From the NCBI GenBank assembly GCA_023301765.1, contig JALZUC010000002.1, forward strand, positions 1-64,000: a DNA stretch of 64,000 bases, written 5' to 3'. The first letter of the stretch is position 1. Every line of letters begins with the position of its first letter. A model generated the notes under the pieces. It did no database searches. It was not told the DNA's origin and saw nothing but the letters and a program-made list of their open reading frames with translations. Source of the stretch: Akkermansiaceae bacterium (GTDB taxonomy: Bacteria; Verrucomicrobiota; Verrucomicrobiia; Verrucomicrobiales; Akkermansiaceae). Shown here in pieces: positions 27,465 to 32,260 of the stretch. Made by a program: the position numbers and the translations under genes.

Positions 27465-27980
27465 TAAGAGACTGGTTTACAAAGATATTTCTCACTTATT
27501 ACCAAGTTATTCACATTGTTACGCCGCAATGTCATACATGGTCCCGTGCCTAGTATATAAAGGCCATTTTCTATTGTGAGCTGCCAGATTTAAGTCTAAA
27601 TCATCACCGGGTTTCTTTCTGCACCCACACACTAGAAAAATAAACTTAACTAATTAACGTTAAGCAGGTTACTTAAATAAACCTCTAACAACGAGTATTT
27701 ATAAATTATCAATTTTAGTTAAATTCTTACTAACAATAAGGTTCTCGTCTAAAATTAAAAAAGCACACCTTTCGCCTCTATTAAAATTTAATTTTAATGA
27801 ACAAATCGATAGTATCTTAACTAATCCCAAAGTTATTCACAAACTAGTCAAACGAACAGACTTCATACCCCATTCCTTCTAAGTTAGTTAGATTGTCAAG
27901 AAACATTAACTATTTTTCTGGTCAGCCCTAAATTTTTCATCTATGGTCCTCGTAATCCTTTATCCAGAAAAACTTTTAGC
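27465..27980. other. AT-rich gap with DnaA-box-like sites (left cluster)
   Basis: No gene is visible. Exact TTATTCACA (fits TTATNCACA) occurs at 27507-27515 and 27833-27841. Each is preceded, 11 bp upstream with an AG spacer, by a weaker 9-mer: TTATTACCA at 27496 and TAATCCCAA at 27822. The middle is very AT-rich, with repeated TTAACTAA-type words and a TTAACGTTAA palindrome near 27653. The layout matches the larger cluster at 31014-31404. Confidence 0.5.
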
Positions 27981-29386: not shown

Positions 29387-30811
29387 ATGTCTCTAGCATC
29401 TCAAAGCATAACCAGCCTTCGTAGCCAGCTAACCAATGGTGATATCACCCCTAGTGATATTCTTGATTCTTTAGCACAAGCTATCGATACCACAAATGGC
29501 AATGTAGGCGCCTACCTCACTCACGATCTGGAGTCAGCAAAACTGGAAGCAAACACCGCTGATCTTAGTAAACCCCTGGGAGGTATCCCCATTGCCATTA
29601 AAGATAATATTAATGTCCTAGGCCAGCCCTGCACTTGTGCATCCAAATTTCTTGCTGGCGGCTACACTGCCCCCTATGACGCCACCGTCATTGCACAACT
29701 ACGTAGCGCCGGAGCTATACCATTTGGCAGGACTAACATGGATGAATTTGCCATGGGGTCTGCCACTGAAAGTTCAGCTCTGGGGCAAACTACCAACCCT
29801 CACGATATAACACGCGCACCCGGTGGTTCATCCGGCGGCTCCGCAGCAGCAGTAGCCGCCCACAGCGCTATCGCAGCCCTCGGCTCAGATACAGGAGGAT
29901 CCATCCGCCAGCCTGCCAGCCACTGTGGCGTAGTAGGCCTAAAGCCATCCTACGGCAGAGTCTCACGCTATGGCCTAGTAGCCTTTTCATCCTCACTTGA
30001 TCAAATAGGCCCCATCACACAAAATGTGGCAGACTCCGCTTTACTACTGAATGCCATCTCTGGCCATGACCCTGCAGACTCCACCTCACTACAAGACAAT
30101 ACCCCTGATTTTACCGAAGGGTTAGACCGTGGTGTAGCGGGAATGAAACTCGGCTTACCCAAAGAATACTTTGCCGAAGGTATAGACCCCGACGTTAGAA
30201 AATCCGTAGACGCCTCCATTGCCAAGCTAGAAGCTGCGGGAGCTGAGCTCGTAGAAATCTCCCTCCCACACACAGACTACGCCGTAGCCACCTACTACAT
30301 CATCGCACCCGCTGAAGCAGCCTCTAATCTCTCGCGCTTTGATGGCGTGCGTTATGGAAATCGCGCTGAGCAGCCCGAGGATATACTAGACCTCTATCGC
30401 CGCAGCCGTGCAGAGGGCTTTGGATCAGAAGTAAAACGCCGTATTATTCTAGGAACCTACGTCCTCTCCTCAGGCTACTATGATGCCTACTACGGACGTG
30501 CACAGAAGGTCCGCACACTCATACGTCAGGACTTTGATAATGCCTACGAGCAAGTAGACGCCATCCTCTCGCCAGTGAGTCCCTCCGCAGCCCCCCTACT
30601 CGGCGCGCATAAGGATAATCCTCTGCAACAATACCTCGCAGATATCTACACCATCTCAGCTAACCTCGCGGGCATCTGCGGTATCAGTGTCCCCTGTGCC
30701 CCCATCACCTCAGACACAGGCACAAAGCTCCCGGTAGGTCTCCAAATTTTAGGCCCTCACATGGGGGAGAAAAAACTCCTCCAGATTGCCTACGCTGCGG
30801 AAAACACATAA
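29387..30811 (+). CDS. gatA: Asp/Glu-tRNA amidotransferase subunit A
   Basis: Amidase-signature enzyme of 474 residues that releases ammonia from glutamine. The catalytic lysine is in AIKDNINV (about residue 69), and the glycine/serine-rich signature GGSSGGSAAAVAA plus SDTGGSIRQPA carries the cis-Ser and acyl Ser. The C-terminal domain has the GLQILGPHMGEKKLLQIA block. The terminal part is slightly shorter than E. coli-like homologues but complete. It is directly followed by the DnaA-box-rich gap. Confidence 0.97.
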   Translation: MSLASQSITSLRSQLTNGDITPSDILDSLAQAIDTTNGNVGAYLTHDLESAKLEANTADLSKPLGGIPIAIKDNINVLGQPCTCASKFLAGGYTAPYDATVIAQLRSAGAIPFGRTNMDEFAMGSATESSALGQTTNPHDITRAPGGSSGGSAAAVAAHSAIAALGSDTGGSIRQPASHCGVVGLKPSYGRVSRYGLVAFSSSLDQIGPITQNVADSALLLNAISGHDPADSTSLQDNTPDFTEGLDRGVAGMKLGLPKEYFAEGIDPDVRKSVDASIAKLEAAGAELVEISLPHTDYAVATYYIIAPAEAASNLSRFDGVRYGNRAEQPEDILDLYRRSRAEGFGSEVKRRIILGTYVLSSGYYDAYYGRAQKVRTLIRQDFDNAYEQVDAILSPVSPSAAPLLGAHKDNPLQQYLADIYTISANLAGICGISVPCAPITSDTGTKLPVGLQILGPHMGEKKLLQIAYAAENT

Positions 30812-31506
30812 GCAAAGCTGTATCGCCGCTAGGCAGTAAGCCTACTGGCTCAGCTTACGCATGCTTAGTGTTTACCTCTTCATTTAAGGACTCTCCTCAT
30901 ACACAGAAGGCAGGGTCACCCATGAAGAAGGCATCATATTCCGGCTGCCTGATCCTCTACTAATCTCTATTCCAATAGAAGATTTATCTATATTTGCCTC
31001 TCTAAGGTAAATGTTACTCACAACTTACTCGCAAGTTATTAACAACCTAACTTATTCACACCTCTTACGGTAAGGGCTAGAGTAAAAAGAAATTTACACT
31101 CATTGAGTGAATTATTAATTACTCAAAAATTTACCCTAAAATCATTGTGAATAACTTGTTATTAATTTTCTGAAATCTTCATTCCATCAAACAAAAAATT
31201 GATGTGGAAATATCCCTATACCCCCACCTCATATCACTACCTACCTCTGTGATTAACTCCCAGGGACCACTACCAAACAACCTGGCCACTTAACTCATAC
31301 AAAGGGGCTTATTCACAATTATATTAGATATCGCTTGATTCACAAACAGCCTAGAAAAACGAGGTAACTACACTTATTCACAGTTTACTAGGAAGTTATT
31401 CACATTATGTTTCCACACAAATAGGTCTCTCAAAGTAGTATTGGCCACTATCACCAAATCTAAGCTATTACTCAGTTCACCCAGAATAAAGACAACCAAC
31501 ACGCGT
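30812..31506. other. AT-rich gap with phased DnaA-box-like sites; candidate replication origin
   Basis: No gene is visible. Exact TTATTCACA lies at 31052, 31146 (minus strand), 31309, 31374 and 31396. Weaker 9-mers are spaced 11 bp apart: TTACTCACA 31014, TTACTCGCA 31025, TTATTAACA 31036; TTATTCACA 31374, TTACTAGGA 31385, TTATTCACA 31396; and on the minus strand TTATTCACA with TTAATAACA 11 bp away. Two-base spacers are AC, AG or GT. The stretch 31080-31190 is very AT-rich and could unwind. E. coli oriC uses the same 11-bp phasing of weak DnaA sites. dnaA, dnaN and gidA are not nearby, and no strand-bias switch is obvious. Confidence 0.55.
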
Positions 31507-32260
31507 ATGCCTAGTCCACCTTATCTTGACCGTATTCTCCTAAAGGAAGGCATTATTACAGATGATCACAAATTCCCGTTCAATCTTCCGTTCGTAAGAG
31601 AACTGGACATTACTTTCGACAATGAGGTCAGTTTTTTAGTTGGAGAAAATGGGTCGGGAAAATCAACAGTAATAGAGGCAATAGCACAACTTTGTAGACT
31701 ACCCGTTGGAGGAGGAGGAAGAAACGATTTGGCGGGTGAAAACAGCCCTCATGCGAAAAGTGAACTAGCTCCTGCTTTATTAGGTAGCTTCTTTACCAAG
31801 CCTAAGGATGGCTATTTCTTTAGGGCAGAGTTTCAGGCCCATTTTGCATCTCTTCTTGATCAGCGTGCTGAAGATCCAGACTTTCTTGGAGATCCGTATA
31901 GTCGATATGGAGGTTGTTCACTTCATAGGCGTTCTCATGGAGAAGCATTTTTGTCAGTTTTTTGAATCATGGATGAGGCCAGGTATAATCTTAATGGATG
32001 AGCCTGAAGCCGCGTTATCACCTCAAAGACAATTGAGTCTCCTCAGGATGATGTCGGAATTAGTTCAGCAAGGTGGCACGCAATTAATTATTGCACCCCA
32101 TTCCCCAATTTTACTTACATTTCCAGGTGCGAGTATCTTTAATTTTGTTGATGATGAATTAAAGAAAGTAACCCTTGAAGAGACGGCTCATTTCCAGATA
32201 ACAAAGGGCATATTGGACAATCCTGAGAGGTATTGGCGGCATCTGAGGAGCGTAGAATAG
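31507..32260 (+). pseudogene. AAA/ABC-type ATPase (COG3910-like) with a frameshift
   Basis: Walker A FLVGENGSGKSTVIEAIAQL lies in frame 1 and the Walker B-like GIILMDEPEAALSP with the following APHSPIL block in frame 2. Frame 1 stops at 31963 immediately after a run of six T (31958-31963). Removing one T joins the frames into a 250-residue protein of normal length for this family (short SMC/RecF-like predicted ATPases). This may be a real mutation, programmed slippage or a sequencing error. Codon use is less C-rich than neighbours, which suggests transfer from elsewhere. Confidence 0.75.

Follow-up and report, generated by a model that had tools for sequence, protein, structure and literature searches.

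A phased array of DnaA-box-like sites outside the predicted oriC of an Akkermansiaceae bacterium: a putative species-specific DnaA-box cluster

The window analysed here is a stretch of 64,000 nucleotides from an Akkermansiaceae bacterium, taken from the start of one contig of its draft genome. Within it, gatA ends at position 30811, and a gene for an AAA ATPase (AAA_21/AAA_15/AAA_23 type, SMC/RecF-like) starts at 31509 and runs to 32260 on the plus strand. A single frameshift close to a T6 run, at about 31955, interrupts the ATPase gene and reflects either a pseudogene or a sequencing error. The gap between the two genes holds a dense array of DnaA-box-like 9-mers at 31014-31404, 100-500 bp upstream of the ATPase start. 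The open reading frames flanking the array are gatA, the ATPase gene and rsfS, and no rep gene was found among those beside it. No RNA gene was detected in the gap at Rfam gathering scores, and a promoter scan of the gap gave promoter-like matches no more often than expected by chance. The gap also contained no match to the IHF consensus, the consensus used being that of E. coli.

The array consists of five exact copies of TTATTCACA and four copies with one mismatch. The exact copies start at 31052, 31309, 31374 and 31396 on the plus strand and at 31146 on the minus strand, in line with a preliminary description that had counted five exact 9-mers in 350 bp. Weaker boxes start at 31014, 31025, 31036 and 31336 on the plus strand, and at 31157 and 31248 on the minus strand. 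By 9-mer matching, the array begins with a triplet of weak boxes in 11-bp steps (TTACTCACA, TTACTCGCA and TTATTAACA; 31014-31044, plus strand), followed by an exact box at 31052-31060. On the minus strand, a composite doublet, TTAATAACA-AG-TTATTCACA, places a weak box 11 bp 5′ of a strong one (31146-31165), and a single box with one mismatch, TTAATCACA, lies at 31248-31256. The plus strand carries a further exact box at 31309-31317, a one-mismatch box, TGATTCACA, at 31336-31344, and two exact boxes with a degenerate 9-mer between them at 31374-31404, arranged as TTATTCACA-GT-TTACTAGGA-AG-TTATTCACA. The 11-bp phasing described previously was present at 31014/31025/31036 and at 31146/31157. In the third group, 31374/31385/31396, the outer boxes are exactly 22 bp apart, or two 11-bp steps, but the middle 9-mer, TTACTAGGA, is very weak, with four mismatches. 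A module resembling 31374-31404 is present in another member of the genus (G012 C3:448004-448033). The segment at 31080-31190, which had been called AT-rich, measured 77% A+T. It lacks a DnaA-trio adjoining a box, and neither such a trio nor a parS-like site was found anywhere in the array.

The gap was compared with 1000 dinucleotide-preserving shuffles of its 697 bp. It contains five exact boxes (shuffle mean 0.017), nine boxes at up to one mismatch (mean 0.32), 14 at up to two mismatches (mean 3.65) and three same-strand pairs exactly 11 bp apart (mean 0.008); none of the 1000 shuffles reached the observed value in any of these counts. A scan of the 2.457-Mb draft genome found 34 exact copies of TTATTCACA, five of them in the array, which is the densest cluster of this 9-mer in the genome. 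At 34 copies per 2.457 Mb, the family-wise probability of finding five within 400 bp is about 1e-7. The density and helical phasing of the array are thus real and beyond chance.

A strict search of the genus with AAG fixed proved too tight for counting doublets, and a position-wise offset test was therefore used instead, on 96 exact TTATTCACA sites from the genus and its relatives; these had been gathered for box density, not phasing, and are not a random genome sample. A weaker box was found 11 bp upstream of the exact sites, with a peak at offset -11 only, where the mean box match was 4.06 of 9 positions, compared with 2.56 (z 7.9). The signal was the same with 91 sites, when the array in the window was left out. 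Of 384 genomes of the class, 29 contained the composite TTATTNNCAAGTTATTCACA and none the reversed control pattern. In 12 of the 28 composite loci outside the genus, the composite preceded a region of DnaA homology by 23-360 bp and was in each case on its 5′ side. A stricter composite had 14 matches in about 85,000 species genomes. Thirteen were in records titled Verrucomicrobiota or subgroups of it; the remaining record is titled only 'bacterium', and its site precedes a DnaA N-terminal domain. The occurrence of the composite across the class, the absence of the reversed pattern and the link to dnaA promoters, together with the partner at offset -11, indicate that the array sites are very probably DnaA boxes, as first proposed. 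DnaA is by far the likeliest ligand, given the match to the classical DnaA box, the presence of such sites at dnaA promoters and oriC, and the intact box-binding domain IV (PF08299) of the DnaA of this genome. A different DNA-binding protein, shared across the class and recognising the same site, is far less likely.

The array had also been put forward as a candidate replication origin, with the caveat that dnaA and dnaN are absent nearby; both genes do lie on another contig (C12). The skew evidence on oriC comes from stretches of this assembly and from contigs of relatives. GC skew was negative in every 4-kb bin over the first 124 kb of the contig that carries the array (C2:1-124000), and within these 124 kb there was no minimum or inflection. 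A location of oriC at dnaA-dnaN on C12 was rejected, as no box cluster is found there. A module beside ribD, at C17:31850-32110, contains boxes whose spacing is nearly fixed (21/146/59 bp), a parS-like CACGTGGAAC, an AT-rich stretch labelled DUE, and a strong box with a DnaA-trio-like run, TAGAAGAAGAAGA, after it; the unit of box, DnaA-trio and DUE lies at 31.87-31.93 kb of C17. The module is conserved in all nine genus members aligned, this genome among them. A search of relatives for box clusters at which the skew changes sign led to G012 contig 2, where the skew goes from -0.17 to +0.17 at 26.0 kb, at a four-box cluster adjoining ribD and a short PurA-like gene. The family member G047 has one contig of 3.18 Mb, and its cumulative skew, computed over 280 kb spanning the change from negative to positive, reaches its minimum near 1.24 Mb. 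At this place, at 1,237,894-1,238,026, there are four boxes and a trio-like run, flanked by dnaN and ribD; dnaA is at the contig start, about 1.24 Mb from the module. In the genome studied here the skew at the C17 module rises only from -0.15 to about 0, and in G008 it flips at the module for only 8 kb; later inversions nearby may account for both. On these comparisons, the predicted oriC is beside ribD on C17, not at the array.

A PurA-like gene, a parS-like site and a DnaA-trio-like run accompany the putative family oriC beside ribD, as seen at C17:31850-32110 here and at C1:1237894-1239850 in G047. Away from this module, the skew of the genome studied here turns sharply from negative to +0.19 at C1:6000-8000, with five DnaA-box copies in the surrounding 9 kb; this is perhaps an inversion joint.

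The adjacency of gatA and rsfS was seen only in this genome. In relatives of the genus the two genes are on separate contigs or about 17 kb apart, and the gap therefore looks like a rearrangement joint. The array was absent from every gatA neighbourhood compared, so that the gap between gatA and its neighbour does not keep it in relatives. As its position is not shared, the array could be a recent or transient accumulation. Box clusters were found at other loci, 3′ of rsfS towards mraZ in G013, G009, G007 and G011, and before dnaB in G003, G005, G010 and G013. A cluster of similar spacing lies in G011 C66, and dnaB of the genome studied here has one exact box 60 bp upstream. Alignment of the array with the rsfS-mraZ clusters showed common box types and nothing alignable beyond the boxes, and a forced alignment with the dnaB-promoter clusters likewise gave no homology beyond them. 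The clusters share a box grammar and no alignable sequence, which suggests that cluster position turns over fast. No such clusters were found upstream of the AAA ATPase homologues in G016 and G024.

A conserved composite doublet, TTATTACCA-AG-TTATTCACA, also lies after thrB in the window (27496-27515, plus strand), and the same thrB-gatC gap contains a second conserved exact box at 27833-27841 on the plus strand. In six species CAAGTTATTCACA is kept and a second GTTATTCACA follows about 327 bp on, in surrounding sequence that has diverged. Judged by this conservation, the CAAGTTATTCACA core is a phylogenetic footprint. The region 27496-27841 can thus be described as a conserved pair of AGTTATTCACA-type sites in diverging surroundings.

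Some further arrangements were observed in relatives. In G003 (C107:2431-2530) and G005 (C121:1638-1718), TTATTCACA recurs every 18 bp in three to five copies, unlike the 11-bp arrays. Relatives of genus g3 (L152-L154, 1501-1553) have an 11-bp-phased array (offsets 0/11/22/44) that immediately precedes a small winged-helix-like gene and is near phage-like and CRISPR-like genes. A small gene 3′ of rsfS in G013 (C1:261365-261600), with equivalents in G009, G007 and G011, encodes FPDYKxxxVxHFPD repeats and has a conserved box directly after its stop codon.

The array groups more DnaA-box matches into about 400 bp than chance would allow, and it lies outside the oriC module on C17. It is most probably an extra-oriC DnaA-box cluster particular to this species, which would titrate DnaA or be under DnaA control. 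The titrating or regulatory role offered earlier as an alternative to an origin thus remains the best reading, while datA in the strict sense is unsupported, the IHF consensus being absent from the gap. We infer DnaA binding at the array, its titration or regulatory function and any effect on the timing of initiation. DnaA would bind the strong TTATTCACA boxes first, and as DnaA-ATP rises the in-phase weak boxes 5′ of the strong ones would be filled cooperatively. The array would then hold several DnaA molecules, sense DnaA-ATP, or both. As it has no box-plus-trio unit, it should sequester DnaA and should not open DNA. The likeliest outcome would be titration of DnaA away from oriC together with DnaA-responsive control of the adjacent AAA ATPase promoter, which bound DnaA could repress or activate, much as may occur at the clusters that the same genus keeps before dnaB. 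That the array could control the ATPase gene, itself frameshifted, is proposed from position alone. A wider and more tentative possibility is that the phased doublet of Verrucomicrobiota, a weak box 11 bp 5′ of TTATTCACA, serves as the building block of a regulon and titration network that is distributed and evolves fast (dnaA, dnaB, the rsfS-mraZ gap and thrB-gatC), in which the array would be the main DnaA sink of this species, independent of an oriC separated from dnaA.

Other explanations account for part of these observations. That the array is chiefly an operator of the ATPase gene, bound by DnaA or another repressor and with no global titration role, fits its place 100-500 bp before the gene and the clusters before dnaB in relatives. 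We consider this rather unlikely, as the G016 and G024 homologues have no upstream clusters, the gene is frameshifted and promoter-like matches are at chance level. Several strong boxes in less than 1 kb outside oriC, as in datA (PMC5295017), could also point to a datA or DARS homologue in the strict sense, which would work in the same way, by IHF-assisted hydrolysis of DnaA-ATP or by nucleotide exchange. Homology of sequence or synteny is not expected across phyla, and the gap lacks the IHF consensus, at least in its E. coli form, making this reading improbable.

An origin at the array would explain why the densest TTATTCACA cluster of the genome has phased weak sites and an AT-rich segment. 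It is very improbable in view of the monotonic skew over C2:1-124000, the lack of a trio adjoining a box and of a parS-like site, and the absence of the array beside gatA in relatives; the conserved module lies beside ribD on C17, exactly where the skew of G012 flips and that of G047 has its minimum. Direct repeats beside an ATPase gene in a synteny break might also be the remnant of an integrated replicon, an iteron-type plasmid or phage origin. The adjoining open reading frames include no Rep gene, the 11-bp-phased 9-mers match the DnaA box of the host itself and the composite recurs at dnaA promoters, so that this too is highly unlikely. The preferred reading of the array remains an extra-oriC DnaA-box cluster.

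Such a cluster has parallels in known systems. B. subtilis has six extra-oriC DnaA-box clusters, whose joint removal leads to early initiation, and datA and DARS are known extra-oriC DnaA sites of E. coli (PMC5295017). The array resembles the B. subtilis clusters in having DnaA boxes grouped outside oriC, several clusters per genome; it differs in belonging to another phylum and in its marked 11-bp phasing with weak partners, and its role is putative. Like datA, it has five strong boxes in less than 1 kb away from oriC and is a candidate for negative control of initiation, but the gap has no IHF consensus and the position is not conserved across species of the genus. Its weak 9-mers with 2-bp spacers recall the low-affinity arrays of E. 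coli oriC (R4-C1-I3-C2-C3), which are filled cooperatively from strong boxes (PMC6727663). Unlike those arrays, it has no skew extremum and no DnaA-trio unit, and is very probably not an origin. It shares the composite TTATTNNCA-AG-TTATTCACA with sites upstream of dnaA in other Verrucomicrobiota, where one doublet precedes dnaA, whereas here a multi-doublet array precedes an ATPase gene.

A cluster of DnaA boxes can be the densest in its genome without marking the origin, and predictions of origins from box density alone can be misled in this way. Most knowledge of DnaA titration and of extra-oriC clusters comes from E. coli and B. subtilis, and the array is a sequence-defined candidate from the Verrucomicrobiota. 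It offers a recognisable composite site, a clear predicted oriC for comparison and natural variation of cluster position within one genus.
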